A stretch of DNA of 64,000 nt from Verrucomicrobiaceae bacterium (GCA_016795375.1 JAEUHJ010000151.1:1-64000); one strand, 5' to 3'. Positions 677 to 16,470 are shown, counted from the first letter of the stretch. Notes: generated by a model from the sequence alone, not told the origin. A program made the numbers and translations.

Positions 677-1698
677 ACGCGGAAGGCATTCATGTTCGCG
701 GCGTCGGCGCTGTGAGCGCCGCTGGATGGAGCGCTAGTGATCTGCTGCACGCGGTGCGTGTAAAAAAATCCCTCCCCGCGATCAATTGCGCCCGCCCCGG
801 TGATGAGCGCCCTTGGCCATGTCCCGTGCGGCCCGTCCCTTCGCTGCCTTCGGACAAGGCCGCGCGGCATCCGCGCCTGCGCCGTGCCAGCGCGATCACA
901 CGCTACTCGCTGGCCGCCGCATTGGAGGCATTGACCGACGCAGGAAGCCCCCCTGCAATGCCGCCAGAGGGGCTGGGCATCATTTATGTCATGATGAACG
1001 GCTGTGTGAACCACACCGGCCGCTTTTACAGCGAAGTCCTGCAAAATCCCGCGCAGGCCAGTCCGCTCATCTTCCCGGAGACTGTTTTTAACGCGCCCGC
1101 CTCGCACGTCGCCTCGTTCCTCGGCATCGACGGCGCGGTCAGCACGCTTGTCGGCGGTTCGAACGTGGTCATGGAGGCCCTGGACATGGCCGCGTTCTGG
1201 ATCCGCGGCGGCACCGTCGCCGAATGCCTCGTCATCGCCGCCGAGGAGTCCGACTGGCTCAGCGCCGAGGCGCTCACCTATTATCATCCGAAACTGGTCG
1301 CTTCCGAAGGCGCGGGAGCCCTGCTGCTGTCTGCCGACGGCCCAGGGCCGCAGATTCGTGATGTCATCGGCCCGATGTGCCACACCTCCTGGGAAGAACG
1401 CGCCGCATTGCTGCCCGAACTGGCGGCCCAAACCACTGCGAAGGTCGATGGCGACGCGACTTTGATCGACGACCAGTGCGGCATCGCGCGCATCGACCGC
1501 GCGGAAGCCGCCGCGTGGTCGCAAACGACCTGGAATGCCGTCCGCAGTCCGAAGGCTGTCCTCGGCGAAAGCATGGGCGCCGGCACGGCGCTGCAACTCG
1601 TGCTCGGTGTGCTCGAAGCCCGCGAAACGCAACGCCAGGCCGTCGTCTCCATGCCCGGCGCCAACACAGCCGCCTACGCGTGCGTGATCACGCCCTGA
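673..1698 (+). CDS. beta-ketoacyl synthase-like protein, probably inactive (chain-length-factor-like)
   Basis: A 341-residue thiolase-fold protein of the ketosynthase family. The start is fixed by a perfect AAGGAGG at 661-667 and by the four-base overlap with the upstream ketosynthase. The nucleophile position, expected as TACSSS or similar, reads LVGGSN near residues 159-164, so the cysteine is replaced by glycine. The GTGT histidine region is absent, and the KSxxGH motif is replaced by GESMGAG near residue 298. The protein therefore lacks the whole catalytic triad. In type II polyketide and aryl polyene systems such dead partners (chain length factors) heterodimerise with an active ketosynthase. 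That role is inferred here from the pairing. It is also shorter than a standard ketosynthase of about 410 residues. Confidence 0.8.
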   Translation: MNAEGIHVRGVGAVSAAGWSASDLLHAVRVKKSLPAINCARPGDERPWPCPVRPVPSLPSDKAARHPRLRRASAITRYSLAAALEALTDAGSPPAMPPEGLGIIYVMMNGCVNHTGRFYSEVLQNPAQASPLIFPETVFNAPASHVASFLGIDGAVSTLVGGSNVVMEALDMAAFWIRGGTVAECLVIAAEESDWLSAEALTYYHPKLVASEGAGALLLSADGPGPQIRDVIGPMCHTSWEERAALLPELAAQTTAKVDGDATLIDDQCGIARIDRAEAAAWSQTTWNAVRSPKAVLGESMGAGTALQLVLGVLEARETQRQAVVSMPGANTAAYACVITP

Positions 1699-1710: not shown

Positions 1711-4629
1711 TCATTTGCCGCTCTGTTTGCGCACCAGGCCGGACCAGGTGATCAGATAGCAGCAGGCGATCCAGAGGCCGAGAATGCCGAGGGAGACGCC
1801 TGCGGGATGGAGATTGTGGTAGATGATGCCCATGGCATAACGGACATCCCCGCGCTCCTCGACGCTCTCCTTGTATTTCTTCACGCCACGGGACATGTCG
1901 AAGGCATTGACGTGCTCGCCCGCATGGCCGGCAAAAACGATCAGATTCTGCCAGGACTTGTTGTTGGGCGAGACCTTGTCGTAGTCTTCGCTGAGGGTGC
2001 CGTCGAGGCTTTTCCACTCCACGGTCTCACGCTCGCCTCCCGGTGTGAGGAAAACCGGATAGCGGGTTCGGTTTGACATGCGCGGCGTGGACTGTCCGTA
2101 GAGGTGCGCCACATCCATGACACGCTGCGCGCAATAACTGGGCACCAGCACGCTGGCGACGCGCACGGACTTCGACATCTCAGGCCGGGTGACGACAAAA
2201 CCGCCGAAAAGAATCTGCGGGATGAGCACCAGCGGCACCCACAGCACGGCCTGCGTGCTGTTCTGCACCAGGGCGGAGATGGCCAGGCCGATGACCACGC
2301 CCACCATGGCCGTGGCGAGCAGTGCGAGGAACTTCATGCCGACGCTGAAGAAAAACACGCGGGAGAGGCTCATGGGAGACAGCAGACCGGTCTCGCGCGA
2401 CTGGTCTCCGACGGGTTCGGTGGCCTCCATCAGGTTGTCGGCCACTTCAAAGAATGTGCCCAGCCTCAGGATCATGCTGACGGTGAAGGAGTTTTTGCGC
2501 TGCTCCTCAAGAGCCATCGCCGACTCCAGGGCGCCATTGTCCGCAGCTACGGCCGTCTGTGCTGCGGCGCCCTCCTCGACCACGGCGAAACCTTCATCGG
2601 CAGCAGGGGCTCCGGGAGCCACGGCAGGCGGCGGGAAAAGACGCGCGGTGATTTTTTCACGGAAGACCTGCTGATCGAGATCCGGTGGATGGAAAACATG
2701 AGCCACCGCCAGGGTGACGAGGAACAGCAGCAGTGCCTGGAGCGCGGTGACGGCGCCGAGGAAGAAGTACTTGCTCTGCAAGTAGCAGTTGGAGCCGAGG
2801 CCGCAGACACGTTCGCGGCGATAGATGGGCAGCTCGCGCACGATCTGCTGCGCGCCATTGCTGCAACCGAACCACAGCGTGGCCACGATGCAGAGGAAGG
2901 AGCGCAGCACCGCCTCGTCCGCCACCCAGCCGACCAGCAATGCGATCAGCAACGGCTGGGCGGCGAGGAACACCAGATTGAGGGGGTCCGCGCGCAGCAC
3001 CGCCCACTGACGTGAAAGCAGCACCGCCAGGCTGCGCATGTAACCACCGCCACGCCGGTCCGAACTGGCGGCTGAGACCTCGGTGTCCGCGCTGCCGAAG
3101 TCCGGGCGGTCGGCCCGCCCGTTCCGCCCCACGAACTCCTGATGCAGCTCCGCGCCGCTTTTGCCGCCTTCCTCCCGGGTTCTGGCAAACAACTGATACA
3201 CCTTCAGCAGGCTGGTGACTCCGAAGTATTCGAGCGCCATCTCAGACGCGGAGCGCAGACGGAACTCCGAGGTGTTCGTGATCGAGCGACTGTGGGTGTC
3301 GTCGAGATCGACGGACACCTCGTCTTTTTTGACATCCGCCCGCTCCGTGTCCACATCACAGGCGACATGGCCGTCCTGGATGAAGATGAGCTTGTCGAAC
3401 AACTGCGCGTTTTCGAGCACATGCGTGGTGCACACCACGGTGCAGGTCTTCGCCAGGCTGTTGAGCAGGCTCATGAGCGAGAATTCCGTGGCGGGATCGA
3501 GGCCGGAGGACGGTTCGTCGAGGAACAACACCGACGGCCTGGAAAGCAGCTCGGTGGCGATGCTGACACGCTTGCGCTGGCCTCCGGAAAGCTGGGAGAT
3601 GCGCTTGAGCCGGTGCTCCGTCAGTCCGAGGCGCTCGATGGTCTCATCCACCAGGCTGTCAATGGCCCGTTGCGGTGTCTCCGGGGGCAGGCGCAGGCGC
3701 GCGCTGAAATGCAGCGCCTGCTCCACCGAGATCTCCATGTGTACGATGTCATCCTGCGGCACAAAACCAATGCCGGCCGCGGTCATCTGACGCGTGTCGT
3801 TCAAGGGCACGTCGTTGATGTAAACACTGCCTTGCGTGGCGGGATTGATGCCGCAAAGCGCGTTGAGCAGCGTGGATTTGCCCTGGCCGCTGCCGCCCAC
3901 GATGCCGACGAAGGTGCAGCGCTCGATGTCGAGCGTCACATCCTTCAAAATGGAGCGCCCGGACTTCAGCGTGAAGGCGATTTTGCGCGCCTTGACCTGG
4001 CCGCCGGTCTGCCGCGGCACGCGCCTCAGGGAATGGCCGGTGAACTCGAAGGTGTAGCTGCCCACACGCATGCGATCCCCCACCTGAAGCCGCTTCTGGC
4101 TGAAATACTGGTCATTGAGCGGTGTTCCCGCCTGGCTCTTGTCGGCCGCGATCCAGTCTCCCTGCGGATCCTTTTCCAACAGGACATGCTCGCGGGAGAT
4201 GGAGGCGTCCGCTGCGTCGAGTGTCAGCTTGTCAGGATCATCTTGCGCGCCACTGTCGCGCCCGATCAGCACGCGGGAGAGCCTGGCAAGTCGCAGCTCA
4301 TCGGTAGGCTGCCCATGAAAGACGGGAGTGTCCGGCACGCGCTGGAAGCGGATGAAAACATCCGGCATCTCGATGATGTCCCCATGCTGCAGATAGACCG
4401 GTGATGTGGCCGGCGAACCGTTGACACGTGTCGAACGCGCGGCTGCCGATGCCGCAGAGAGAACCCAGGTGGCGGAACGCTGGTCCCAACTGAGACGGGC
4501 ATGCTCCGGCAGCATGGAGGAGCCGCAGATCTCGCATTCAGAGGAGGATCCCACTTTCAACACCGCCTGGCTGAGGGCATGGTGGCTTGCAGGTGCATCA
4601 CCCGCGCAGACTGAGATATGGCCTTTCAT
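1711..4629 (-). CDS. ABC transporter ATPase/permease with two N-terminal FHA domains
   Basis: A 972-residue half transporter of the ABCG-like (ABC-2) layout. Two FHA-type domains lie at about residues 1-100 and 108-200. The second is canonical, with LIGRDS, ISREHVLL and a late LQVGDRMRVGSYTFEF strand. The ATPase follows, with Walker A GGSGQGKS near 245, signature LSGGQ near 347, Walker B VLFLDE near 367 and H-loop His near 403. The C-terminal half carries two groups of hydrophobic segments separated by a large non-membrane loop. FHA domains bind phosphothreonine peptides, so transport is probably controlled by a Ser/Thr kinase. A kinase is encoded nearby at 7132-9600. The substrate cannot be predicted. 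It converges with the ketosynthase pair with 12 bases between the stops. Confidence 0.9.
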   Translation of the reverse strand: MKGHISVCAGDAPASHHALSQAVLKVGSSSECEICGSSMLPEHARLSWDQRSATWVLSAASAAARSTRVNGSPATSPVYLQHGDIIEMPDVFIRFQRVPDTPVFHGQPTDELRLARLSRVLIGRDSGAQDDPDKLTLDAADASISREHVLLEKDPQGDWIAADKSQAGTPLNDQYFSQKRLQVGDRMRVGSYTFEFTGHSLRRVPRQTGGQVKARKIAFTLKSGRSILKDVTLDIERCTFVGIVGGSGQGKSTLLNALCGINPATQGSVYINDVPLNDTRQMTAAGIGFVPQDDIVHMEISVEQALHFSARLRLPPETPQRAIDSLVDETIERLGLTEHRLKRISQLSGGQRKRVSIATELLSRPSVLFLDEPSSGLDPATEFSLMSLLNSLAKTCTVVCTTHVLENAQLFDKLIFIQDGHVACDVDTERADVKKDEVSVDLDDTHSRSITNTSEFRLRSASEMALEYFGVTSLLKVYQLFARTREEGGKSGAELHQEFVGRNGRADRPDFGSADTEVSAASSDRRGGGYMRSLAVLLSRQWAVLRADPLNLVFLAAQPLLIALLVGWVADEAVLRSFLCIVATLWFGCSNGAQQIVRELPIYRRERVCGLGSNCYLQSKYFFLGAVTALQALLLFLVTLAVAHVFHPPDLDQQVFREKITARLFPPPAVAPGAPAADEGFAVVEEGAAAQTAVAADNGALESAMALEEQRKNSFTVSMILRLGTFFEVADNLMEATEPVGDQSRETGLLSPMSLSRVFFFSVGMKFLALLATAMVGVVIGLAISALVQNSTQAVLWVPLVLIPQILFGGFVVTRPEMSKSVRVASVLVPSYCAQRVMDVAHLYGQSTPRMSNRTRYPVFLTPGGERETVEWKSLDGTLSEDYDKVSPNNKSWQNLIVFAGHAGEHVNAFDMSRGVKKYKESVEERGDVRYAMGIIYHNLHPAGVSLGILGLWIACCYLITWSGLVRKQSGK

Positions 4630-4709
4630 GGGGGGCAGTTTAGGAGGTAATGCGAAATGTCAGGGGAATTTCTGGCCTGTGGTGATGGAATGGCTTCTGC
4701 TGATGATTT

Positions 4710-4738
4710 TTACAAGTGGCAAGAAAATAACTGGTCAA
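4710..4738 (-). promoter_or_regulatory. candidate promoter of the FHA-ABC transporter gene
   Basis: On the minus strand TTGACC (4738-4733) is followed after 17 bases by TTGTAA (4715-4710). The spacing suits a housekeeping sigma factor, and the -10 box is weak. The surrounding intergenic segment is clearly more AT-rich than the genes. Transcription would begin about 75 bases before the ATG. Confidence 0.3.
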
Positions 4739-4749
4739 TCGATCTGCAA

Positions 4750-4755
4750 TATGAT
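4750..4755 (+). promoter_or_regulatory. candidate -10 element for the glycine-zipper lipoprotein gene
   Basis: TATGAT in the AT-rich divergent intergenic region, about 47 bases before the ATG at 4802. No good -35 box lies at the expected distance, so this is only a suggestion. Confidence 0.25.
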
Positions 4756-4801
4756 TTCATGAGAGCGCATATTTCAAATATATCCAGCCCCCCATACCGC
4801 C

Positions 4802-5437
4802 ATGAGCACACGCACCATCCGTCTGACCGTCACCGTCGTCCTGGCAGCGATGCTGGGCAGTTGCACCAATATCAAAGATGATGGCAAGCGCACACGCACG
4901 GAAGGCGCGCTCGGCGGGGCCTTCCTGGGCGCCCTGGCCGGCGCAGGCATCGGAGCGCTCACAGGGCGCGGTGCCAGCGGCATCATCGCCGGAGCCGTTG
5001 CCGGAGCGGCCGCCGGCGGAGTGGGCGGCTATGCCTACGGAGACCATGTGGCGAAGAAGAAAGCCGCTTATAAATCAACCGAGCAGTGGCTCGACGCCTG
5101 CATCGCCCAGGCCCGTGCCACGAACCAGAAAGCACGCAACTACAACAGCAGCCTTAGCGCCAAGATCAGCAAGCTGCGCTCCGAAGTCGCCGCCGCCAAA
5201 TCCTCCGGCAACAGCCGCGTGTTGCAGCAGAAGAAGAGCGAAATCCAGAAGCTGCAGAAGGAGTCCACGAAGGAAATGCAGAAGCTCGACAACGAGATCA
5301 AGCTGCAGCAGGACGTGCTGGGTGAGAAGCAGAGTCCTGCCCTGAAACAGGAGGTGATCAGCCTGCGCAGCACCCGTGGCACGATGTCCAGCAACTACGA
5401 CCGTCTGGCCAGCCTGAACCGCGAGATCGATGTCTGA
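4802..5437 (+). CDS. glycine-zipper lipoprotein with a coiled-coil C-terminus
   Basis: A 211-residue predicted lipoprotein. A signal peptide ends in the lipobox LGSC (Cys about residue 22). A glycine-zipper stretch follows at about residues 37-82 (GGAFLGALAGAGIGALTG and GAVAGAAAGGVGGYAYGD), the pattern of SlyB/OmpA-like two-helix membrane-embedded hairpins. The remaining 125 residues are charged, Lys/Gln/Glu-rich and likely helical (LQQKKSEIQKLQKE region), suggesting a coiled coil. It probably sits in the outer membrane with the helical part in the periplasm. A second small lipoprotein and an S41 protease follow in the same direction, so the three may be an operon. Exact function is unknown. 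Confidence 0.75.
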   Translation: MSTRTIRLTVTVVLAAMLGSCTNIKDDGKRTRTEGALGGAFLGALAGAGIGALTGRGASGIIAGAVAGAAAGGVGGYAYGDHVAKKKAAYKSTEQWLDACIAQARATNQKARNYNSSLSAKISKLRSEVAAAKSSGNSRVLQQKKSEIQKLQKESTKEMQKLDNEIKLQQDVLGEKQSPALKQEVISLRSTRGTMSSNYDRLASLNREIDV

Positions 5438-5495
5438 CCAAAGGGCGGGGGTTCCGCCTGCGCACCTTTGACACGCACCTTCAAAACGCATCCTC

Positions 5496-5726
5496 ATGTC
5501 ACGCTCCATTTCACTCTCCCTGGTGCTCTGCACCCTGAGTCTCGCCAGTTGTGAAACAACGGGCGATCCTTCCCAAGGCGGCTTGTTCGGCTGGTCGCAG
5601 TCCAAGGCGGATGTGCGCATCCAGGAACGGCAGAACACGCTGGCCGCGCTTGATGACGAGCGTGCTTACCAGAGGCGGCGCACCAATGCATTGCGGGCCG
5701 AGCATGACCGGCTCAAAAACCAATAA
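5496..5726 (+). CDS. small lipoprotein, unknown function
   Basis: A 76-residue protein with a signal peptide and lipobox LASC (Cys about residue 19), followed by a short Gly-rich linker and a charged, probably helical tail rich in Arg, Glu and Gln. It lies 58 bases after the glycine-zipper lipoprotein gene. Its stop codon shares one base with the start of the S41 protease gene (TAATG), so it is probably co-translated with the protease. No family is recognised. A role as an envelope partner or substrate adaptor of the protease is only a guess from position. Confidence 0.65.
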   Translation: MSRSISLSLVLCTLSLASCETTGDPSQGGLFGWSQSKADVRIQERQNTLAALDDERAYQRRRTNALRAEHDRLKNQ

Positions 5727-7105
5727 TGGACGGCGGTCATGTCCATCGCAGCAGGTGGATGCTGGCTGGCATGCTGGCATGCGGGTGGTTGTCGGCCAGC
5801 AGCGCCCACGCCCAGGCGGATGGCCGGGAATTGGATGCTGCGGTGGAGACCTTGCGCGAGTGCGCGAGCGTGATCGAAAAGCGTTGTTATTATCCTCTGA
5901 CGGCACCCGTGGTGGTCACCCGGTCGCTCGCAGAATTGCATCAGTCAGGCATCGTCACTGGGAGCGACCTGCCTCCCGCGCCCGACCTGGCACAAATGAC
6001 CGAGACCGAGGCATTGCAGGGTGCGCGGAAACACCTGGCCTTGCTGGCCGCTTTGCCTGGACAACGCCTTTCACCAGTGGAGCTGGCGGAGGCGGCGCTG
6101 GCGGCGTACTGCCGCAAGATCGACCCCTACACCCGCTACGAGACAACGGAGGACGCGGCTCGCATTGACAAGGCGCGCGCCACGTCCGGCAGCGGTATCG
6201 GCATGAGTTTGAAAGAACGTGACGGCACCTATTACTGCTACCCGTATCCTGACAGCGTGGCCGCGCTGTCCGGCATCCGCCCTGGGGACAAGCTGGTCTC
6301 CGTGGACGGCCGTGCGGTGAAAAACCAGTCCGTGGACCTGCTGGCGACATGGATCAAGGGACCGCCAGGCACCGAGGTGAAGCTGCGCATCGAAAAAAGC
6401 ACCGGGCGCCAGCAGTTGCTCCCGGTCACGCGTGAGGCGGGGTCGATCTCGCCGGCGTTTCGAATTGAGAAGGACACCGGCGGCGTGGTACTGCGGGTGC
6501 GTCGCTTCGAACATGGCATGGGGGAGGCGGCCTTCAAGGCGCTGCAAAGCGAGGGCCAGGGCTCCGCACGGCTCATGACCGTGGATCTGCGCGGAAACCA
6601 GGGCGGATCATTGATGGGAGCGGTCGAACTGGCCGCGCTTTTTCTCGATCCCGGCGCGGAGATCGCCACCATTTTGGAGCGCGGCTTCCCGCCGCGCAAA
6701 ATCGAGGCCGAAAAGGCGGCCGTGCTCAAGCCGTCACAGATTTCCATTCTCCAAGACGAAGGAACCGCCAGTGCATCCGAGGTTTTCATCGCCGCGCTGG
6801 TGATGAACATCCCTGATCGCGCCGCCAGCCAGGGGCAGAAAACTTATGGCAAAGGCGTGCTGCAACTCGTCGTCTCAGATAAAAACAACGGTCAGGAGGG
6901 CGCCGACATCGTGACCATCAAAAGCGGCGGCGTGCTGACGCTCACCACCGGCATGATATTCGCCAAGGGCGGCCTCTCCTGGAATGAGACGGGATTGCTG
7001 CCTTCCACCACCGCCGCCGGCGGCAAGATTTTCGCCCCCAATGCCATCTCCATCAACAACACCGCCAGATCACGCCCCAAGCCGGTGGTGAAACTGGTGG
7101 ATTGA
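5726..7105 (+). CDS. S41 family carboxyl-terminal processing peptidase with PDZ domain
   Basis: A 459-residue secreted serine protease. The signal peptide runs over about residues 1-34, ending SSAHAQA. A helical N-terminal region is followed by a PDZ domain at about residues 155-240 (GIRPGDKLVSVDGRAV) and by the S41 core. The core has MTVDLRGNQGG, the nucleophile region EGTASASEVF and the general-base lysine in KTYGKGVLQ, so the Ser-Lys dyad appears intact. Family members trim C-termini of periplasmic proteins or regulate cell-wall enzymes. The start overlaps the stop of the preceding lipoprotein gene by one base. It converges with the kinase gene that follows. The physiological substrate is unknown. 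Confidence 0.88.
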   Translation: MDGGHVHRSRWMLAGMLACGWLSASSAHAQADGRELDAAVETLRECASVIEKRCYYPLTAPVVVTRSLAELHQSGIVTGSDLPPAPDLAQMTETEALQGARKHLALLAALPGQRLSPVELAEAALAAYCRKIDPYTRYETTEDAARIDKARATSGSGIGMSLKERDGTYYCYPYPDSVAALSGIRPGDKLVSVDGRAVKNQSVDLLATWIKGPPGTEVKLRIEKSTGRQQLLPVTREAGSISPAFRIEKDTGGVVLRVRRFEHGMGEAAFKALQSEGQGSARLMTVDLRGNQGGSLMGAVELAALFLDPGAEIATILERGFPPRKIEAEKAAVLKPSQISILQDEGTASASEVFIAALVMNIPDRAASQGQKTYGKGVLQLVVSDKNNGQEGADIVTIKSGGVLTLTTGMIFAKGGLSWNETGLLPSTTAAGGKIFAPNAISINNTARSRPKPVVKLVD

Positions 7106-7131
7106 GGAAGGAGTTCCGGACATCAACCGGA

Positions 7132-9600
7132 TCACTGCACGGCGTTTTCAATCTCCTTGCTGTTGCCCTCGAAGGTGTTGCCCTCCAGCTTCGGAGTGGC
7201 GCCAGGATAGACAAAGATGCCGGTCAGGGCGTTGGAGGCGCAGTGATTGCGCAGGATCCTGGGACTGAAACCGGCGCCTTGAATGGTGATGCCGTGCTGC
7301 CCGCCCCCCAGGCATTGATTCCCCTCCACCGTGATGTCCGCCTGACCGGCGGCGCCGATCAGCATGATGCCGCGGTAAGGGTTGCTCCTGACTGTGCAGT
7401 TGCGGATGACGCTGCCGGCGGAGCACTCAAGAAGCTGCACACCGGACTTGGCGTTGCCTTCCACCATGACGTTCTCCAAAACGACGACCGGCGCGTTCTC
7501 AGCCACCAGCCCGCCGCCACCCTGGCCGCTTTCAGTGCCTCTGCTGGCGTTGCCGCTGAAGACGAAACCGTTGCTGCTCAAGCTGCCGCCCTTCCAGCTC
7601 GCCTGGGTGCCGGAATCGAGCACATACAAGCCGTTGAGCACATTCTCACGGGCATTGACCTGCACCGCCTTGAGCGACGCTCCTTTTTCCACAGCCAGAC
7701 CGTTGGCCTGGTTGCGCGTGAAATCGGACTCTGCGGCCTCCGCAGTCGATCTTCCAGTGACAGACATGCCATCCAGGCCGTTGCTGGTCGCCTGGCATTT
7801 TTGCAACCCGGCATACGCACCACGGGCCAGCAGGAAACCGCAGCCCTGGTTCTGTCGCGCGGCACAGTTGGCCAGCGAAACCCGGCTGGAGCCCTCCACC
7901 TTCACTCCATCCCCCAGCCCCTTTTCAAACACACAGTTCTCAAAGGTGACGTTGCTGGACAAAATGCTGACCACGGCAGGCCCTTGAGCGGCCGCGGCCA
8001 GATCATCACCGCTGTGGGCAAAAGTCAGGCCGCTGATTTTGACGGCAGTCTTGACTTTGTCCGCCTCCAAGGCGCTGCCGGACTTGCCTTCAACTGTGAC
8101 CAGCACACGGGAGCCTGGAGGGTCGGCGGCGAGAGACACGCCATCCGCCAGTTTCACGTTTTCCTCATAAGTGCCTGTCTGCACACGCACGGTCTCCCCC
8201 GGCTTGGCCGCTGCCAGAGCCGCTTGGATCGTGGGATATCCTGTGGGGACCACCAGAGGCTGATCCGCCTTGACTGGCGCGCTTTCCGACCTGGCCGGCT
8301 CCTCTGCCTGAGTGATATCACGCTTCTCTGTCCCGTCTGCGCGAGTGCCCGGCGTTCCTCCATTCGTCGTTTCATCGGCTGCCGTCCCGGAATTGCCCGG
8401 GGGCCACAGAAAATAAGCGGTGCCAACCGCAAGCAAGGCCGCGCCGACGGCAATCAACCACACTGGAACTGCCTTTTTGCCCGGCTGCCGGCTGGATTCC
8501 TCAACAGGCACCCCGCTGATGGCAGGAGCACTGGCGGTGCTGCGCTGCTGCGCGGCCAGTGGTGACAGCGTCTCACCCATTCGCACGGTGACCGCCCGCC
8601 CCGCTGACACCGCCGTTTCCGCCACAGCCGGATGCAAGCCCGCTGCTGTTGTAAGATCACTCATCGTCGAGGGTGTCAGCGACGGCACCTGACCGCCCAG
8701 CCCCAATCCCAGCAGAAAACCCACCTCATCCACCGTGGCCGGCCTGAGCTCCGGATGCTTGGCCAGACAGCGGCAAATCACATCCTCCCAGGTGGCGGGA
8801 AACGGCTCTGTGCTGCCGAGATTAAATTCAAAGCGCCGCTCGCTGATCGTGGGCGGGACATCCTCACGAATTTGCCGGACAAAATCACCGGTGTAAAACG
8901 GCGGCTTGCCGGTGAACATCTCATACAGCGTGCTGCCAAGTGAGTAGATGTCATCGGAGGGGCTGGCGGACTTGCCCGCCGCCTGCTGCGGACTCATGTA
9001 AGCCAGCGTCCCCGTCGAATTGCCGGCGATAGTGACCCGCGACATGGAGTCCTGGATGCTGCGGGCGATGCCGAAATCCATGATCTTCAAATCCCCTTGC
9101 GAGTTGATGATGAGATTCGGCGGCTTCAAATCGCGATGGGCGATTTTTGCATGGCGGTGCGCGTAGGAGAGGCCGTCGAGCATCTGCGCCACCCAGCGCG
9201 CGACCTGGCGCGGCTCGAAAACCTTGTTGGGCTGGAGCACGCGCAGCTTCGCCAGCGTGTCTCCGTCCACATATTCCATGCAGATCGCCGCATGATCGTC
9301 ATCAAGGAAAAAATCAAAAATCCTGACGATGTTCGGATGCGCGAGATCCTGCCCGCGGCGTGTTTCGCTCTTGAGCTCCTCGATCGCCGCATCGTCGGAA
9401 CGAAGCGTGTCAGGGGCGAACTTGAGCGCCACCTCCCGCCCCAGCAGCGTGTCTTCGGCCAGCCAGACCACCCCCATGCCGCCGCGTCCCAGCACCCGCT
9501 TCAACGCAAAGCGTTTGAATGCGAGATCCCCCGATTGATGCCCGCGCATGGTGGCTCCGAACTCTATGTCATCGAGATTGGTGGGGACATTGTCACTCAT
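7132..9600 (-). CDS. transmembrane Ser/Thr protein kinase with extracytoplasmic right-handed beta-helix
   Basis: An 822-residue protein. The N-terminal PknB/Hanks-type kinase domain (about residues 28-300) has the glycine loop GRGGMG near 38-43, catalytic lysine in VALK near 60, HRDLKPPN near 155-162 and DFG near 175, so it should be active. A Pro/Ser/Thr-rich linker leads to one transmembrane helix (about 376-400, VWLIAVGAALLAVGTAYFLW). Outside the membrane, from about residue 448, the sequence reads as a pectate-lyase/NosD-type parallel beta-helix of repeated short turns (many N-x-x-G and V-x-x-N motifs). That domain replaces the PASTA repeats of the best-known kinases and may sense a glycan. 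ATG at 9600 was chosen over a TTG two codons upstream. Two FHA proteins nearby are plausible targets. Confidence 0.9.
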   Translation of the reverse strand: MSDNVPTNLDDIEFGATMRGHQSGDLAFKRFALKRVLGRGGMGVVWLAEDTLLGREVALKFAPDTLRSDDAAIEELKSETRRGQDLAHPNIVRIFDFFLDDDHAAICMEYVDGDTLAKLRVLQPNKVFEPRQVARWVAQMLDGLSYAHRHAKIAHRDLKPPNLIINSQGDLKIMDFGIARSIQDSMSRVTIAGNSTGTLAYMSPQQAAGKSASPSDDIYSLGSTLYEMFTGKPPFYTGDFVRQIREDVPPTISERRFEFNLGSTEPFPATWEDVICRCLAKHPELRPATVDEVGFLLGLGLGGQVPSLTPSTMSDLTTAAGLHPAVAETAVSAGRAVTVRMGETLSPLAAQQRSTASAPAISGVPVEESSRQPGKKAVPVWLIAVGAALLAVGTAYFLWPPGNSGTAADETTNGGTPGTRADGTEKRDITQAEEPARSESAPVKADQPLVVPTGYPTIQAALAAAKPGETVRVQTGTYEENVKLADGVSLAADPPGSRVLVTVEGKSGSALEADKVKTAVKISGLTFAHSGDDLAAAAQGPAVVSILSSNVTFENCVFEKGLGDGVKVEGSSRVSLANCAARQNQGCGFLLARGAYAGLQKCQATSNGLDGMSVTGRSTAEAAESDFTRNQANGLAVEKGASLKAVQVNARENVLNGLYVLDSGTQASWKGGSLSSNGFVFSGNASRGTESGQGGGGLVAENAPVVVLENVMVEGNAKSGVQLLECSAGSVIRNCTVRSNPYRGIMLIGAAGQADITVEGNQCLGGGQHGITIQGAGFSPRILRNHCASNALTGIFVYPGATPKLEGNTFEGNSKEIENAVQ

Positions 9601-9657
9601 GAGCAAGAAGCCGGGATGTCATGGGGTTGAGAAAAAATCATCTCACAAGACTTCGGT

Positions 9658-9676
9658 TTGAACTGTACGCGTTCAA
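9658..9676. promoter_or_regulatory. inverted repeat TTGAAC-N7-GTTCAA upstream of the kinase gene
   Basis: A perfect six-base inverted repeat with a seven-base spacer, 58 bases before the kinase ATG. The GAAC/GTTC half sites resemble operator half sites of winged-helix or helix-turn-helix repressors, including some LexA boxes, but this spacing is not one I can assign. It is a candidate operator only. Confidence 0.3.
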
Positions 9677-9704
9677 GTCGCAAGTTTTGGTTCGGGGCGG
9701 ACAT

Positions 9705-9731
9705 GAAACAGGCCGCCCTGCGGGCGGCCTG
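9705..9731 (-). terminator. intrinsic terminator after the small lipoprotein gene
   Basis: A ten-base-pair GC-rich stem, CAGGCCGCCC/GGGCGGCCTG, with a three-base loop (9709-9731). On the minus strand it is followed by a short T-run (TTTC). It lies 45 bases after the stop of the minus-strand lipoprotein gene and before the kinase gene. The T-run is short, so termination may be partial. Confidence 0.55.
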
Positions 9732-9775
9732 CGTGGGGTTCACCCAGCTCCGTCGAAACAGGGCATGCACCCTGA

Positions 9776-9961
9776 TCAATGGCTGTAGGTGGAAGGCTTG
9801 GTGATCGCCTTGAAATCGTCCGGGGAGGAGCTGTGCGTCGTCGTCACTCTGCGCACGGGTGTCGATGGCTTGGGCGCCGGTTTCGGCGGCACGACATAGG
9901 TGTGATAAGTGCAGTTCGAGAGCAACAGCGCGGCGGCAAGGATGGTGATGTTGTTTTTCAT
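9776..9961 (-). CDS. small lipoprotein, unknown function
   Basis: A 61-residue predicted lipoprotein with a short signal peptide and lipobox LSNC (Cys about residue 17), then a Pro/Lys-rich stretch (VVPPKPAPKPSTP) of the kind that spans the envelope or peptidoglycan, and a Ser/Thr-rich tail. No conserved domain is recognised. It lies 59 bases downstream of a gene for a secreted protein on the same strand and is followed by a strong hairpin. The Thr-rich tail is noted only because kinase and FHA proteins are neighbours. Confidence 0.55.
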   Translation of the reverse strand: MKNNITILAAALLLSNCTYHTYVVPPKPAPKPSTPVRRVTTTHSSSPDDFKAITKPSTYSH

Positions 9962-10020
9962 GGGATGAATATGGTGAAAAATGTGGCGCGAAACCTGATG
10001 AATGCCTGATGCTGCGGCTG

Positions 10021-10551
10021 CTAATCCTTTTTGGGCTGTGCCTGCGGCAGTTGGGTGGTGGCAGGGCCGTCGGTGGGGGCTCCTCCGCCGGAACCGTCCA
10101 GGATCACTCCCTCCTTGGCCACACCACGACGCCCCACAAGCACGGTGTAGGAAGCCAGGCCGTTGGCCCTGGCCATGTGCAGATAAACCACCGCTGTTCC
10201 GTTGTAGGACGAGCGGAACTGCACGCCTGCGAGCTTTGAAGAACGGCGGTCATCCAGGATCAACTGGCCGACTTCGTCATAAACGTAGATGTCAACGTCG
10301 CGCGTCAGATCATCTGTGCCGACGAGGAACACATAATCCAGGCCGCGAACCACCGGAATGAGGAAGCGGACGGCCCCTCCCGTTGTCAGCATGCCGGAAT
10401 GGTCCGTGGGAGCCATCTGGAAGCCTTTGTGGATGTATGAATCCGCCATCCGGTAGGCCACATCTTCAGCCTGCGCAGGATCAGCCTGCGACGTACGAAT
10501 TGACAGTGTCAGAATGCCGAAAACAACAAGTGAGAGATAGGAAAGCTTCAT
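10021..10551 (-). CDS. secreted protein, unknown function (possible PPC-like beta-sandwich)
   Basis: A 176-residue protein with an N-terminal signal peptide (about residues 1-23). The core is beta-rich: GLDYVFLVGTDDLTRDVDIY, then a DEVGQLI segment and a VVYLHMARA strand. The order of an Asp-rich turn followed by a strand and a late YTVLVGRR resembles bacterial pre-peptidase C-terminal (PPC)-type beta-sandwiches, but the match is by eye only. The C-terminus is a low-complexity Gly/Pro/Gln tail. It is likely periplasmic. It precedes a small lipoprotein gene on the same strand, possibly co-transcribed. Confidence 0.6.
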   Translation of the reverse strand: MKLSYLSLVVFGILTLSIRTSQADPAQAEDVAYRMADSYIHKGFQMAPTDHSGMLTTGGAVRFLIPVVRGLDYVFLVGTDDLTRDVDIYVYDEVGQLILDDRRSSKLAGVQFRSSYNGTAVVYLHMARANGLASYTVLVGRRGVAKEGVILDGSGGGAPTDGPATTQLPQAQPKKD

Positions 10552-10609
10552 AGCAACCCGAGATTACGCAATCGGGCGTGACAATTGCAAGAAAAAAAAT
10601 CCGCGTGGA

Positions 10610-11419
10610 TCACAAAACAAATTCTTCGGCAAGTTTTTGAGCGAGCTGGTTGGCTTTTTGCACTTTTTCCTTCTCAATGGTGCCGTCGAGCGGGATGTTC
10701 ACGATGTCGTACAACTCGGCCAGTGCCGCCGTGAGTTTGACCACGCGCGGATTGGCCTTGGTCGCCTCCGGCAGCGCCTGCATCTCCGTCATCATGGCTT
10801 TGACGAGCAACGGCTCGCGCAGGATGTTGGAAAGCGCGGGCGTGTAATGGCCGCTGATCACATGCATCGCATAATGCACGCCCTGGAGCCAGCCGGCGGC
10901 GATGATCAGCGTGCGGCGCTTCTCATTTCCGCGTTCGTTGAGCGAATGCATGATGTCCACCTGCAGGCAGCCCATTTCCCAGAACACCAGGGTCCACTGC
11001 CCCTTGTTGGCCAGCGCACGGGTTTTTTTGGCGCGCTCGAGCTGCGTGTCGCTCACCTTGAGTTTTTTGGCCAGCGCCTCGATGTCATTGGCGCAATCGT
11101 TGAGCGCGTTCGCGTCCCGTGCTTTCACCGCCACGATGCCGTCGGCGATCCGGACTCCCAGCGCGAGGCAGACATTGGTCTCCTCTTTCAAGGCGCCCAG
11201 ATCGGCATTGCGGGCGATTTCTTGAAAAACCCCCGCCCAGGCAACCGGCTTGCCGCCAAGCGCGGCATCCAGCCCCAGCAGCTTGTCCATCGGACTGGGC
11301 AGCCCCAGCTCGGAATTCTTTGCCTGGGACATGTCAAAGGGAGCTTTCTGCTCCTGCGCAGACAAAGATGACATCACAAGGGTGAGGGCGAGGCCGGGGA
11401 ACAGGCGGAATCTTTTCAT
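10610..11419 (-). CDS. secreted protein, unknown function
   Basis: A 269-residue protein starting at the ATG that begins a signal peptide (MKRFRLFPGLALTLVMSSLSAQ). The open frame extends far upstream, but that extension is antisense to the lipoprotein gene at 11526 and is not used. The mature part is mostly helical, with ALGVRIADGIVAVKARD, a DTQLERAKKTRALANKGQW segment and an LNERGNEKRRTLIIAAGWLQG segment. No catalytic motif is evident. The gene is divergent from two lipoprotein genes across a 106-base gap. A periplasmic location is expected, and no function can be assigned. Confidence 0.65.
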   Translation of the reverse strand: MKRFRLFPGLALTLVMSSLSAQEQKAPFDMSQAKNSELGLPSPMDKLLGLDAALGGKPVAWAGVFQEIARNADLGALKEETNVCLALGVRIADGIVAVKARDANALNDCANDIEALAKKLKVSDTQLERAKKTRALANKGQWTLVFWEMGCLQVDIMHSLNERGNEKRRTLIIAAGWLQGVHYAMHVISGHYTPALSNILREPLLVKAMMTEMQALPEATKANPRVVKLTAALAELYDIVNIPLDGTIEKEKVQKANQLAQKLAEEFVL

Positions 11420-11525
11420 GACAAAGCGGGGTTCTGTTTTAGTTTCAGGCCAGACGTGCTGGCGTTGCGACTTCACGCCCGAAGTTAACGCCTTCACGCC
11501 GATAACGGTCAAGCCTGTTTCTTCC

Positions 11526-12503
11526 ATGAACGCAAAAACCTTCTCATTCCATGGTTTTCCCCAGCATGGCGTGCTCGCCTGCATCATCTGTGTCACCGCG
11601 TTGTCAGCATGTTCGGAAAACGAAGGCCATATCATGGAGCTGCGAATGCTCCGTGACAAACTGGCAGCGGCTGAAAAAAAGGCGGCTGAGGCAGTCGAGG
11701 CCGCGCAACAAACCCCGGCTCCTGTCGCTGACCCAAAAGCCGGCGCTGAAGCGACCGCCAGATTGGAGGCTGCGTCCGCAAAGATAGCATCCCTGGAAAA
11801 AGAGCTGCAAAGCGCGCGGAGCGCGGCACAGGCCTCCGCCGCGACCAGCACGTCAAAGGGAAGCGAGGAAAGTTTCCGCGGCTTCGTCAAATCCATGGAG
11901 CAAAGCCTCCTCACCAAAGTGAATGAGTTGCAGCAGTCCGTGGAGCAGGCGCTCCCGTCCGCCAACATCCAGGAAACCACGGTGAAACGGCTCCGTCTCC
12001 CGGAGGAAATTGCCACCGCCTTCCAATCTGCCGTCGTGTTCAACATCACGGACGCAAAGGGTCAGGCCCGGCGCCTGGAGTTTCCAGTCCAGGCCGGACT
12101 GGACGGCCAGTGGCGTCTGCCCGGCGCGGCGGATGTGCAAAAACACATTGCCACCGCAGCCACGCAACCACTGACCGCTTCGCAGGTGGCCGCCGCCCCT
12201 GCTCCGGTTGTCCCAGCCGCCGCTCACACGCCTGGCGACGTCCACGCACCCTCGGCGCTGCCACAACCGGCCATCGCAAACATCTCCACGCCAGGTGGAG
12301 GTACCGCCCCCACCGTCGTTATTCAGTGGGATACCGCCCCGGGGAGGGCGGCCGCGCCGCCTGCGGCGGCGGCACCTCAGCCCGTCGCCACAGCCGCCAC
12401 GACCCCTGCGGCGGCCAAGCCCGCCCCTGCGGCAGCACCGAGACCAAGCGTGCCAAAGGCCATCATGCCGGTGCAGCAAGATGTGCAGATACGCTTTGAG
12501 TAA
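11526..12503 (+). CDS. coiled-coil lipoprotein, paralogue A of a tandem pair
   Basis: A 325-residue predicted lipoprotein. ATG at 11526 gives a signal peptide with lipobox LSAC (Cys about residue 29). Next comes a heptad-like helical region (LRDKLAAAEKKAAEAVEAA and IASLEKELQSARSAA), then a globular segment at about residues 120-225 (VKRLRLPEEIATAF, VVFNITDAKGQARRLEFPVQ, GQWRLPG), a long Ala/Pro linker and a conserved tail, MPVQQDVQIRFE. The next gene encodes the same arrangement with clearly related sequence, so this is a local duplication. It is probably anchored in a membrane and spans the periplasm. Function is unknown, and it is not a family I recognise. Confidence 0.72.
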   Translation: MNAKTFSFHGFPQHGVLACIICVTALSACSENEGHIMELRMLRDKLAAAEKKAAEAVEAAQQTPAPVADPKAGAEATARLEAASAKIASLEKELQSARSAAQASAATSTSKGSEESFRGFVKSMEQSLLTKVNELQQSVEQALPSANIQETTVKRLRLPEEIATAFQSAVVFNITDAKGQARRLEFPVQAGLDGQWRLPGAADVQKHIATAATQPLTASQVAAAPAPVVPAAAHTPGDVHAPSALPQPAIANISTPGGGTAPTVVIQWDTAPGRAAAPPAAAAPQPVATAATTPAAAKPAPAAAPRPSVPKAIMPVQQDVQIRFE

Positions 12504-12532
12504 ACACGGCAAAAACCGCCACGGCTCCTCAT

Positions 12533-13498
12533 ATGAAACTCGCAAAACCATCCGCACCCACCCGCATTCTCACGGGGTTCCTTGCTGTGATGTTCCTGTC
12601 TGGCTGCCTGGAGAACGAAGACCAGGTGCAGGAACTGCGGCAGTTGCGCGAAAAACTGACGGTGGCGGAGAAAAAACTCGCGGAACGGACGCAGCAGCCC
12701 GCGCAAACCACAATCACCTCGCAGCACATTGCCGAAACTGCTCAAAAGCTGCGCAAGGCGGAGCAGCAAATTGCAGAGCTGGAGAAGAAACTGCAGGAAC
12801 AAGCGTCCCGCCCCGCCACCCCGTCCGATCAATCCATCACTCCCGCCGCGACAGCCCGCACCGCCGACAGCCTCGGCCTGCTCGTTGAGGCCATGGAAAA
12901 CGATCTGCTCAACAAGGTGGGCGAGCTGCGCGCCTCTTTGGGGAAAACCATTCCCGAAGCGAACCTGAAAGGCGCCACGACGATCAAACGGCTGCGCCCC
13001 CTGGACAAAATCGCGCCAATGTATGATTCGGCGATCACATTCAAGGTGGCGGACAAACACGGCAACACATGCAAGCTCGTGTTCCCAGTGCAGCCTGGCA
13101 CTGACGGCCGCTGGCACCTGCCCTCGCTCGCGATCATCCAGGAACAGATCAAGGCGTTCATCAACCGCGACTGGCCGCAGTCGGGCCTTCCTTCGCACGC
13201 AGGCTCGCATCTCACATCCCCCCTGCCCGTACCACCCGGCTATGTGGACAAAACCCAGAAAAAACCGGCCGACCAGGACACTTTCGTCATTCGTTGGGAC
13301 ACTTCGCCGGTCATGGAAGACAAACCCCAAAGCGCTCCCGTGGCTAATTCCCCGGTTCCGCCTGCAGCATCACCGTCTCCGATTGCTACACCGTCACCAT
13401 CTGCCAAAGAGGCCCAATCCGCTCCGCCCCCACAGCCTCGCCGCACACCCGCGCTCATCATGCCCGTGATGAAAGATGTGCAGGTGCAGTTCGAATAA
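12533..13498 (+). CDS. coiled-coil lipoprotein, paralogue B of a tandem pair
   Basis: A 321-residue predicted lipoprotein with lipobox LSGC (Cys about residue 25), directly downstream of its paralogue with 29 bases between them. The same order is seen: coiled coil (LRQLREKLTVAEKKLAE, AEQQIAELEKKLQEQ), globular segment (TIKRLRPLDKIAPMYDSAIT, VFPVQPGTDGRWHLPS), a motif TFVIRWDTSP matching TVVIQWDTAP in the paralogue, a Pro/Ala-rich linker and the tail MPVMKDVQVQFE. The globular segments differ enough that the duplication is not recent. The downstream FHA-like protein gene begins 25 bases later, so the three are probably one operon. A structural or sensory role in the envelope is inference. Confidence 0.72.
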   Translation: MKLAKPSAPTRILTGFLAVMFLSGCLENEDQVQELRQLREKLTVAEKKLAERTQQPAQTTITSQHIAETAQKLRKAEQQIAELEKKLQEQASRPATPSDQSITPAATARTADSLGLLVEAMENDLLNKVGELRASLGKTIPEANLKGATTIKRLRPLDKIAPMYDSAITFKVADKHGNTCKLVFPVQPGTDGRWHLPSLAIIQEQIKAFINRDWPQSGLPSHAGSHLTSPLPVPPGYVDKTQKKPADQDTFVIRWDTSPVMEDKPQSAPVANSPVPPAASPSPIATPSPSAKEAQSAPPPQPRRTPALIMPVMKDVQVQFE

Positions 13499-13523
13499 AT
13501 CCGGCAGCGTGAAGCCACCCCAG

Positions 13524-15998
13524 ATGTCCAGTCTTTCCCGCCTCGATCAGGAGCTGCTTGAAAAATTCAACTTCGGAGAGCGGCTGCACGCCCCCTCCCC
13601 CCTGCATCGCCGCGCCTGCGGCACACGGCTTGGGCAGCCGTCGCCCTCTCCGCTGGTTGTCAGTTGGGCGCATCATGCCACGCCGCTGTCGCGTGAGTCT
13701 GTCGAACGCCAGCGTTCGGTCGCCGGGCGGATGCAAAACTCCTCCTCGCCCCTGCTCGCCACGGTTTCCGAGCATCAGTTTGAGCCGGAATATCACTGGA
13801 TGTCAGCGTTTTTGCCGCCGGGAAGAGACCTGCGGGACATCCTGCGTGTGCAACAGCGCCTGACCGTGGAGCAGGTGGAATGGCTGGTCGCCATGCTAGG
13901 CGAAGCGCTGCGTGCCGCAGTGGACCAAGGCTGGCCTCGCCTGACCCTGGACGCCACCCAGGTGATGACGGATTTCGACTCCCGCGTCATGACCGTGCTC
14001 ATTCCTGACATGCCCTTGTTGGGCATGTCGTCCGGAGTGCAGTCTGACGCCATGCAGACCATCGCCTTCAATCCCGCCGCCTTTGCCACCAGCGATGGCG
14101 ATCCGTTTCCGGACAACACCCGGGATTATGTGACCCCCCTGGCCACGCTTTGCACCCAGTTGCTCGGAGCTGCTGCCAGCGGTGGAGGTCAGAATGAACG
14201 CTTCAGGGCCATCCCCTCGCTCACCATTTATCAGAACACCCTCCTGCGCAGCGCTCTCGCCGGCACGCAGCGGCACAGCTTTGAGACCCTGGATGAGTTT
14301 GTCTCCCATTTCCTGGGTGGCGGTGAAAGCGGGCATGCCACTGGTGCGCACACCGCCCACGTCACCACAAACACACCGGTCACCGGCTACCGGACAAGCC
14401 ATGTCCCCGCAGCTCCTGCGACAAGCACCGCTGCCTCCACCACCATCACCAGGCGTCACCCGGCGCCTGTGGACGCCACGCTGCTGCTCGCCGCTCCCGA
14501 AGGCTACACGATCCGCCGCGAGCTGCGCGTGCGCGAAGGCTGGCGCATGACCGAGGCCGTTCATGCGACCCTGGGCGATGTCGTGCTGACCGCCGTGGAT
14601 GTTTCAGCCGAGGTTGGCGAAGCGTTGCGCCGTCTTTCCGGCCAGATGCAGGTGCTGCAAAAGTCCACGCGGCCTGAATTGCTGCGCCCGGTCGATGTGC
14701 GCAACGATCCGCGCATCCTGCATGTCGCGCGCCCGCTTCCTTCCGGACGCACCCTGCTCGACGCCTTGCGTGAGCGCCGCGCCTTCCCCCGCCCTGCGGT
14801 GGCCCGCCTGCTGGCGATCATCCATGCTTCATACGAGGCTCTCTGGTCGCTGCTGGAGCGCCGTTACATGGCGACCTCGCTCGATCAATTCTGGCTTCCT
14901 TCAACCAGCGGAGAAGCTGATGAAAACGGACTCCTGCTGGACGCTCCGCAGCTCGTCATCGAATCAGTCATTTCCGGCGCGCAGTCAACGCCGCGTGTGG
15001 TGGGCCACTTCGCACGGCTGGCCATGCTGCTGCTGGGGCAGGATGTCGGCGGCTTGTCCGGGGAGGGCCAGGCGCGCTTCACTCCCGTGCCGGAATTAAG
15101 CGCCGAGATCAACGGCATGCTGCGCCTCGCCCTCTCACATGAACAATCGGGCGACCTGACACTCCCGCGTTTTCTCGCGCAACTGACCGCCGCCCTGGCC
15201 GGGCACACCGCTGTGGCCGAGGCCAGCCGTCAGGTGCTGCAGGTGCCGGAAGATCTCCGCGGCATGGAGGTCAAGCCCGCGCAAAGGCTGCGCTTGAAAC
15301 CACTCGCAAACTCCCAGCCCTTCATCGCGCTCATCGCTGATGAATCGCTCTGGCTTGGCCGTGCCAGCACGCACAGCGATTATGTCGCGCAGTTCCGGCC
15401 GCACAGCCCCGTCAATGACAGCCGCACGCGTCTGATCAGCCGTGCCCAGACCAGGGTGTTCATGCAGAACGGCCAGGTTTTTCTCGCCGACACCGGCACC
15501 ACCAATCCTTCCTTCACCGCCGGACACCGCCTCGGCAGTCCTGAAATCGCCGAGTTGCCCATGACCCTCGTTCTTGCGGGGGAATATCCGCTGGAAATGC
15601 GCTCCATGAAATCTGCCTATCCCGCGCCCGGTCCCGTCGTCACCGGGTGGCCCGCGTCAAAACACCGCTCCCTGCGCCGCGGAGCCTGCGCCTTCTTCTC
15701 CCTCGACCGCGGCACGCTTCCGTTTGAGGCCGCCTGGCTGTTCACCGATGCCAGCCTTGGCATCGACTCGAACGGCCGCCTCGCATTTCTCGTTCAGAAC
15801 ACACAGGACAGCATTGTGCGTTTTCACCACCATGCCGGCATGTTCTGGGTGGAGGCCCCGATCCCTTCCACGGTCGAATTAAACGGCCGCCATCTCCATT
15901 TCCGCGAAGTCGCCCCTCTCAATCCGGGTGATGAACTGCGCCTCCAGGGCCTGGCATTCCGCGTGGAAGCCTACACTCTGGAGAGCAAAGCGGAGTGA
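13524..15998 (+). CDS. multidomain protein with kinase-like remnants and two C-terminal FHA-like domains
   Basis: An 824-residue cytoplasmic-looking protein without a signal peptide. ATG at 13524 is preferred, since earlier in-frame starts lie inside the upstream gene. Two regions resemble degenerate protein-kinase lobes. The first (DLRDILRVQQRLTVEQVEWL, followed by a GEALRAAVDQGW helix) and the second (TLLDALRERRAFPRPAVARL and a following helix) have the spacing of the kinase hinge and helix E. Both lack HRD and DFG. The C-terminal 230 residues hold two FHA-like domains. The first has LWLGRAS, ISRAQTRVF and DTGTTNPS, and the second has VELNGRHLH and LNPGDELRLQGLAFRVE. A scaffold reading phosphothreonine marks is a reasonable inference. 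The kinase assignment is by eye and uncertain. Confidence 0.65.
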   Translation: MSSLSRLDQELLEKFNFGERLHAPSPLHRRACGTRLGQPSPSPLVVSWAHHATPLSRESVERQRSVAGRMQNSSSPLLATVSEHQFEPEYHWMSAFLPPGRDLRDILRVQQRLTVEQVEWLVAMLGEALRAAVDQGWPRLTLDATQVMTDFDSRVMTVLIPDMPLLGMSSGVQSDAMQTIAFNPAAFATSDGDPFPDNTRDYVTPLATLCTQLLGAAASGGGQNERFRAIPSLTIYQNTLLRSALAGTQRHSFETLDEFVSHFLGGGESGHATGAHTAHVTTNTPVTGYRTSHVPAAPATSTAASTTITRRHPAPVDATLLLAAPEGYTIRRELRVREGWRMTEAVHATLGDVVLTAVDVSAEVGEALRRLSGQMQVLQKSTRPELLRPVDVRNDPRILHVARPLPSGRTLLDALRERRAFPRPAVARLLAIIHASYEALWSLLERRYMATSLDQFWLPSTSGEADENGLLLDAPQLVIESVISGAQSTPRVVGHFARLAMLLLGQDVGGLSGEGQARFTPVPELSAEINGMLRLALSHEQSGDLTLPRFLAQLTAALAGHTAVAEASRQVLQVPEDLRGMEVKPAQRLRLKPLANSQPFIALIADESLWLGRASTHSDYVAQFRPHSPVNDSRTRLISRAQTRVFMQNGQVFLADTGTTNPSFTAGHRLGSPEIAELPMTLVLAGEYPLEMRSMKSAYPAPGPVVTGWPASKHRSLRRGACAFFSLDRGTLPFEAAWLFTDASLGIDSNGRLAFLVQNTQDSIVRFHHHAGMFWVEAPIPSTVELNGRHLHFREVAPLNPGDELRLQGLAFRVEAYTLESKAE

Positions 15999-16038
15999 TC
16001 CCGGACGTCCGTCACCGACAAACTCACATCCTCAAACC

Positions 16039-16470
16039 ATGACCGCCCGATTCCAAAACCTCCTCATCGCGTTGCTGCTCGCCTCCTGCGCCTCACGAAA
16101 TCCAAATGTTCACCTCATGGAGTCCGGCGTGGTGGAACGAGTCACCATGGACATGCGCCAGACAGGCGGCACCACTCCTTTCTGGAGCGCCCTCTGGCTC
16201 GCCGCCATCGGCAGCGGCATCGGCACTGGGGCCACGGCTCATGCCATCGGCGCAGGTGGCGGGGCGCTGCTCGGCGGCGGCCTGGGCTATGCCCATGACC
16301 GTCGTGTCTCCAGAAATTCCGCCCGCACCGTCGAAGTGCTGGCTGACTCCGGCACCCGCTATCTCATGCGTGACTCCGGCTCCCCGCCCGTGCGGCCCGG
16401 CCAGCGTGTCTGGGTCGCGCTTGACTCCCGGGGCAGGCCGGAACGCCTCATCTCCGGTCAACTTCGCTGA
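16039..16470 (+). CDS. glycine-zipper outer-membrane-type lipoprotein
   Basis: A 143-residue predicted lipoprotein. ATG at 16039 gives a signal peptide with lipobox LASC (Cys about residue 17). The middle contains a Gly-rich zipper (GSGIGTGATAHAIGAGGGAL and GGGLGYAHDRR), like the two-TM glycine-zipper lipoproteins of the SlyB type. The C-terminal 50 residues are beta-rich (TVEVLADSGTRYLMRD, GQRVWVALDSRGRPE), also in keeping with SlyB-like proteins. It follows the FHA-like protein gene by 40 bases and converges with a minus-strand gene. A role in outer-membrane integrity is inferred from the family. Confidence 0.7.
   Translation: MTARFQNLLIALLLASCASRNPNVHLMESGVVERVTMDMRQTGGTTPFWSALWLAAIGSGIGTGATAHAIGAGGGALLGGGLGYAHDRRVSRNSARTVEVLADSGTRYLMRDSGSPPVRPGQRVWVALDSRGRPERLISGQLR

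Follow-up and report, generated by a model that had tools for sequence, protein, structure and literature searches.

A conserved kinase, FHA exporter and lipoprotein gene block in a Prosthecobacter-like bacterium that probably forms one envelope system

Do the genes for a transmembrane Ser/Thr kinase, an ATP-binding cassette (ABC) exporter with forkhead-associated (FHA) domains and a row of lipoproteins, found side by side in a Prosthecobacter-like (Verrucomicrobiaceae) genome, form one system, or do they merely share a neighbourhood? The question was raised by a sequence-only reading of a stretch of 64,000 nucleotides (GCA_016795375.1 JAEUHJ010000151.1:1-64000; contig G000:C65), referred to here as the window. 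In that reading these genes were grouped at 1711-16470 with an 824-residue FHA-like protein and an S41 protease. All the listed elements were found to be present, and their conserved order and co-occurrence place the clustering beyond chance. About 11 genes at 1711-15998 are kept together in relatives, and they probably constitute one undescribed system for switching envelope-directed export on or off. The members of the block, with lengths in amino acids (aa), are as follows.

1711-4629, minus strand: FHA-FHA-ABC-2 exporter, 972 aa (Pfam FHA x2, ABC_tran, ABC2_membrane; TIGR00955 WHITE/ABCG-like)
4802-5437, plus strand: gz1, glycine-zipper and coiled-coil lipoprotein, 211 aa (lipobox, weak Gly-zipper match; kept beside ABC and S41)
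5496-5726, plus strand: micro-lipoprotein 1, 76 aa, LASC-ETTGDPSQGGLFGWSQSKAD... (conserved position)
5726-7105, plus strand: S41 (CTP-type) protease with PDZ (Pfam; presumed Ser349/Lys376 dyad conserved)
7132-9600, minus strand: Ser/Thr kinase, 822 aa (Pfam Pkinase 7e-52, Beta_helix 3e-34)
9776-9961, minus strand: micro-lipoprotein 2, 61 aa, LSNC-TYHTYVVPPKP...FKAITKPSTYSH (conserved position)
10021-10551, minus strand: g176, predicted exported protein, 176 aa (conserved in the block)
10610-11419, minus strand: g269, predicted exported, all-helical protein, 269 aa (best genetic marker of the system)
11526-12503, plus strand: lip1, coiled-coil lipoprotein with Pro-rich tail (homology, lipobox)
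12533-13498, plus strand: lip2, tandem homologue of lip1 (homology, lipobox)
13524-15998, plus strand: FHA_PK, soluble protein, 824 aa (profile comparison, FHA residue alignment)

Four of these members, namely the two micro-lipoproteins, g176 and g269, had been overlooked earlier, and all four are conserved with the block. The right edge was moved from 16470 to 15998, because the second glycine-zipper lipoprotein (16039-16470) and the flanking genes are unmatched in the relatives' loci. Thus both glycine-zipper lipoproteins of the sequence-only reading exist, but only the one at 4802-5437 belongs to the block. By tblastn, the ketosynthase, DUF1592, DUF1552 and second glycine-zipper genes of the window had no match at the relatives' loci, and on this ground the last of these and the flanking ketosynthase/DUF1592 genes were rejected as block parts. 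As the tblastn table mixed several loci, it was used for the absence of flank genes and for single identities of assignable place.

Conservation of the block in relatives

A first survey took in 56 related genomes, of which 35 belong to the genus of the window. In this set, three genomes of the genus (G000, the source of the window, G004 and G008) accounted for the strong matches to the S41 protease, the lipoproteins and FHA_PK and for the full-length matches to the ABC protein, and the full-length kinase match was likewise confined to them. A fourth full-block genome, G166, came from an order-wide search. Gene order is identical in these four Prosthecobacter-like genomes. In G004 the block is split at two contig ends, g176 ending C238 and g269 ending C17, the arrangement that adjoining contigs would give. 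Identity to the window ranks G008 > G166 > G004 for the ABC protein, the kinase, FHA_PK and the S41 protease. Purifying selection was seen on nine block genes compared with G008, with ratios of nonsynonymous to synonymous change (pN/pS) of 0.17-0.38; the ratio for lip2 was 0.54.

Outside the family, a single 16-kb contig of G098 holds eight of the families (ABC, g269, g176, FHA_PK, a beta-helix-type kinase, S41, micro-lipoprotein 1 and gz1) as well as a coiled-coil lipoprotein, in a local order that differs from that of the window. A smaller core, made up of g269, usually g176, the kinase, a coiled-coil lipoprotein and the FHA-ABC protein, recurs in further families and in another order of the class (G610). 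Same-strand runs of g269, kinase, coiled-coil lipoprotein and FHA-ABC are found in G060, G092 and G610, with g176 too in G060 and G610. The lipoproteins of these three clusters have in common a lipobox, a coiled coil and one short stretch of conserved sequence, rather than clear similarity overall. In G134 and G125, which were matched on members other than the lipoprotein, g269, g176, kinase and ABC genes are clustered.

Co-occurrence was counted across 387 genomes of the order, with thresholds of E<=1e-60 for the exporter and E<=1e-24 for a strong g269 match. The exporter was present in 40 genomes and strong g269 in 37, and 31 genomes had both, against 3.8 expected; the pair lies within 10 kb in 20 of the 31. 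The sequence-only reading had staked its proposal in part on the neighbourhood being kept in relatives. It is kept, in full in four genomes, as eight families in G098 and as the core beyond, and this conservation supports one functional system.

The kinase, the exporter and the pseudokinase-FHA protein

The kinase consists of a kinase domain (32-288), one transmembrane (TM) segment (374-400) and a parallel beta-helix ectodomain (~519-815). Its G-loop, VAIK Lys, HRD and DFG are all intact, so that the transmembrane Ser/Thr kinase read earlier from the DNA is predicted to be an active enzyme of the Hanks type. PASTA repeats of the PknB/Stk1 type were not detected in the ectodomain by Pfam or NCBIfam, the beta-helix standing in their place. 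A beta-helix also occurs in the system kinases of G134 and G059, and the G098 kinase aligns with that of the window along the ectodomain. The kinase beside g269-g176 at locus L086, which has the beta-helix, is the closest outside the genus among the fetched loci (62% to the window kinase domain). In genus g16 the kinase linked to FHA_PK has PEGA and peptidoglycan-binding domains in place of the beta-helix. These ectodomain types, including those of the g16 paralogue, suggest that the kinase senses the envelope.

In the exporter, a degenerate FHA1 (~22-95) and a canonical FHA2 (120-190) precede the nucleotide-binding domain (NBD; 228-374), and a TM scan placed segments at ~547-582, 620-651, 758-814 and 942-966, with two large loops. 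The two FHA domains ascribed to this protein were both recovered as Pfam FHA stretches, but phosphothreonine-reading residues are kept only in FHA2. The Arg of FHA1 is lost in 19/19 aligned relatives (GS, GN or similar instead). In the window and in close relatives FHA2 retains G-R, S-R-x-H and N; some erosion is seen in distant ones. In a PDB search the NBD was closest to lipid-transporting ABCA chains, from which a lipid or glycolipid might be guessed as a likelier substrate than a protein.

FHA_PK comprises pseudokinase 1 (38-292), pseudokinase 2 (318-570), a canonical FHA-A (585-692) and a degenerate FHA-B (705-820). The two FHA-like domains claimed for it were thus found, one intact and one degenerate, but its "kinase-like remnants" proved to be conserved tandem pseudokinases. 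Pfam detects only one FHA in the protein, and weakly (E=0.003). In FHA-A the G-R, S-R and N residues are kept in 14/14 covered sequences. Since the exporter and FHA_PK have one canonical FHA each (FHA2 and FHA-A), one phosphothreonine reader is predicted per protein.

The kinase ancestry of FHA_PK was drawn from profile comparisons. Comparison of its two pseudokinase domains showed them to be homologues (hhalign probability 97, E=2.4e-11). The first matches the second, kinase-like domain that lies behind the active kinase in the G060, G092 and G610 clusters (hhalign E=7.7e-7), and this domain in turn matches active kinases (E=5.4e-9). Compared directly with kinases, the FHA_PK N-terminus gave an hhalign E of 1.4e-5. 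Searched against the PDB, the family profile found ULK3 at E=2.9e-4, with other kinases and FHA domains as weaker matches. A Foldseek search gave kinases in all 50 matches listed, which is consistent with this assignment; the AlphaFold model used is of low confidence (predicted local distance difference test score, pLDDT, 41; three sequences) and lends weak support. A phmmer search of the protein against the PDB returned weak WzzB noise only, and plain BLAST against the fused kinase-pseudokinases gave no convincing match, profile comparison being used instead. In the aligned registers neither pseudokinase has the VAIK Lys, HRD or DFG. Because kinase homology is combined with loss of the catalytic motifs and the gene is under purifying selection, FHA_PK is a conserved tandem pseudokinase and not a decaying kinase.

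Relatives of FHA_PK in other genera have a single pseudokinase domain each. The match to the fused kinases provides a domain-fusion link between scaffold and kinase, a related domain being built into the kinase in other lineages. At locus L058 (G093:C173) two kinase genes, 51-53% identical to the window kinase domain, flank a more distant relative of FHA_PK (8087-9952), and no exporter match was found in that genome. This arrangement suggests that the scaffold can serve other kinases.

One system, its rivals and its precedents

With moderate confidence we favour the block as one kinase-controlled envelope system with an FHA exporter, a scaffold and extra envelope parts. The transmembrane kinase would read something periplasmic through its beta-helix ectodomain, probably with help from g176, g269 and the lipoproteins, and would phosphorylate threonines on itself and/or on partners. 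These marks would be bound by exporter FHA2 and by FHA-A of FHA_PK; the binding would assemble kinase, scaffold and exporter, and the activity or clustering of the exporter would be switched. The exporter would deliver an envelope component, with the lipoproteins and the S41 protease handling or tuning the periplasmic side. Phosphorylation and gating of the transporter and scaffold by this kinase, as earlier proposed, appear plausible, since the catalytic residues of the kinase and the phosphothreonine-reading residues of FHA2 and FHA-A are intact and PknF-Rv1747, described below, sets a precedent. More tentatively, and with confidence a little short of even, the same parts may be seen as a hitherto undescribed and widely conserved Verrucomicrobiota system. 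Its single export complex, controlled by phosphorylation and reaching from the cytoplasm to the outer membrane, would unite a receptor kinase of the beta-helix type with a scaffold of pseudokinase and FHA domains, dedicated lipoproteins and two new families of periplasmic proteins; in some lineages the pseudokinase part of the scaffold is joined to the kinase.

Several observations weigh against a single system of this kind. Most core-bearing genomes are without FHA_PK, and in f2, f18 and g17 the cluster kinases come from another kinase subfamily (27-33% identity). The block has no phosphatase and no biosynthetic gene that would hint at the substrate. The hypergeometric p-value for co-occurrence ignores shared ancestry and is not to be read literally; the recurrence of physical linkage in several families carries more weight. 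Linkage is itself not obligatory, as the block genes are split in genera g16 and g18 into exporter-gz1-micro-lipoprotein 1-S41 (L066, L068, L069, L070), g269-g176-kinase (L086, in G059) and FHA_PK with another kinase (L053, L054, L062). Finally, the observations themselves concern genes, domains, key residues kept or lost, neighbourhood, co-occurrence, selection and the kinase homology of the scaffold's N-terminus, whereas the phosphorylation events, their reading by FHA domains, the gating of the exporter, its substrate and the signal are inferred.

The split in g16 and g18 is what would be expected if two or three independent modules merely travelled together, one for export (FHA-ABC, gz1, micro-lipoprotein 1 and S41) and one for kinase signalling (kinase, g176 and g269, optionally FHA_PK), the latter with targets elsewhere, as exactly these sub-clusters lie apart there. 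The same genomes, however, still hold all the modules. Moreover, a canonical FHA in the exporter implies that it has a Ser/Thr kinase as partner, and the runs in G060, G092 and G610 join exporter, kinase, lipoprotein and g269 on one strand without gz1 or S41. We therefore regard independent modules as rather unlikely. Still less probable is that the kinase acts by way of the S41 protease and lipoproteins to control cell-wall turnover or the quality of envelope proteins, with the ABC protein incidental. The adjoining of coiled-coil lipoproteins by an S41 protease with intact dyad, and the PEGA and peptidoglycan-binding domains of the g16 kinase, would fit such a role, but the compact core clusters lack S41 and micro-lipoprotein 1 and all of them have the ABC protein. 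A chance neighbourhood of common gene types, for which dozens of kinase candidates per such kinase-rich, lipoprotein-rich genome and the unrelated flanking genes might speak, is very improbable and is already refuted by the comparative data: the conserved order, the block edges where unrelated flanks start, and the excess and linkage of exporter-g269 pairs.

The closest precedent for a kinase-controlled export system is the PknF-Rv1747 operon of Mycobacterium tuberculosis, a kinase-exporter pair for which phosphorylation, FHA dependence and positive modulation of the transporter have been reported (PMC3908365). Envelope glycolipid export has been suggested for Rv1747 (PMC5549992), and its phosphorylation-dependent condensation has been reviewed, together with the long disordered linker between its FHAs (PMC9312465). 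As there, FHA-FHA-NBD and an ABC-2/ABCG-like transmembrane domain are joined in one chain, and a transmembrane Ser/Thr kinase gene lies in the same cluster. In contrast, the mycobacterial operon has two genes, against about 11 here, and its FHAs flank the disordered linker, whereas those of the block exporter are adjacent and FHA1 is without Arg. The pseudokinase-FHA scaffold, lipoproteins, S41 protease, g176, g269 and beta-helix kinase ectodomain go beyond that system. By analogy, the best reading is that the block works like PknF-Rv1747, without the long inter-FHA linker and with many added parts.

In mycobacteria a pseudokinase and an FHA protein, MviN and FhaA, also take part in envelope synthesis under the control of a Ser/Thr kinase (PMC12599244). 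The VAIK Lys is replaced by Thr both in MviN (VALT) and apparently in pseudokinase 2 here (VVLT). Unlike MviN-FhaA, FHA_PK unites two pseudokinase domains with FHA in one soluble protein, without the flippase part of MviN.

A transmembrane kinase and an FHA protein also switch an envelope machine in the threonine-phosphorylation pathway (PpkA-Fha-PppA) of the type VI secretion system. The block likewise has a transmembrane kinase and FHA proteins, and no type VI secretion genes or PppA-type phosphatase were detected in it by Pfam or NCBIfam. No description of a Verrucomicrobia kinase-FHA-ABC system was found in the literature searched, which largely leaves out subscription papers. A single mycobacterial pair is the main known case of an exporter under kinase-FHA control, and the richer conserved version would provide a second, non-pathogenic model in a little-studied phylum. 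It would come with built-in controls, as each protein has one live and one dead FHA and the pseudokinase lies in a separate scaffold or in the kinase, depending on lineage. The block also gives genetic context to the uncharacterised families g176 and g269, and makes the exported substrate and the triggering signal directly testable questions.

Lipoproteins, exported proteins and other features of the window

The two homologous coiled-coil lipoproteins of the sequence-only reading were confirmed as a tandem pair, lip1 and lip2 being ~37% identical; a single copy of this type was found in G004 and G166. The S41 protease was likewise present as read, with its PDZ domain and presumed Ser/Lys dyad. 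Both micro-lipoproteins fall under the usual open reading frame (ORF) cut-offs. The first has a near-invariant CxTTGDP-QGGLFGWSQSKAD motif, and in nine genomes, G098 among them, its gene always separates those of gz1 and S41; the second lies between the kinase and g176 in 4/4 Prosthecobacter-type loci.

The g176 and g269 families had no Pfam or NCBIfam match, and PDB profile searches with them gave chance-level matches only. For g269, Foldseek with the AlphaFold model (pLDDT 54) gave nothing at E<0.001. A PPC-like sandwich was considered for g176 and dropped, being without Pfam support. g269 belongs to a paralogous family, with weaker members in G000 and in many other genomes across Verrucomicrobiota, including those of a genus of the order with 2-3.5 Mb genomes that may be Akkermansia.

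Neither Rfam nor tRNA scanning gave a match in the window. At its left edge lies a ketosynthase-like pair (17-676 and 673-1698, plus strand), the second apparently divergent, which is not conserved with the block. Two ORFs of ~1750 aa each, at 36715-41991 (minus strand) and 36955-42150 (plus strand), overlap in antisense and the minus ORF has no Pfam match, so one of them is probably no gene. In two distant genomes, and not in the block of the window, a protein of 700-760 aa with CxxCH heme-type motifs lies inside the cluster (L085:2284-4404 and L056:5917-8205); the L085 copy is cytochrome c-like in Pfam.

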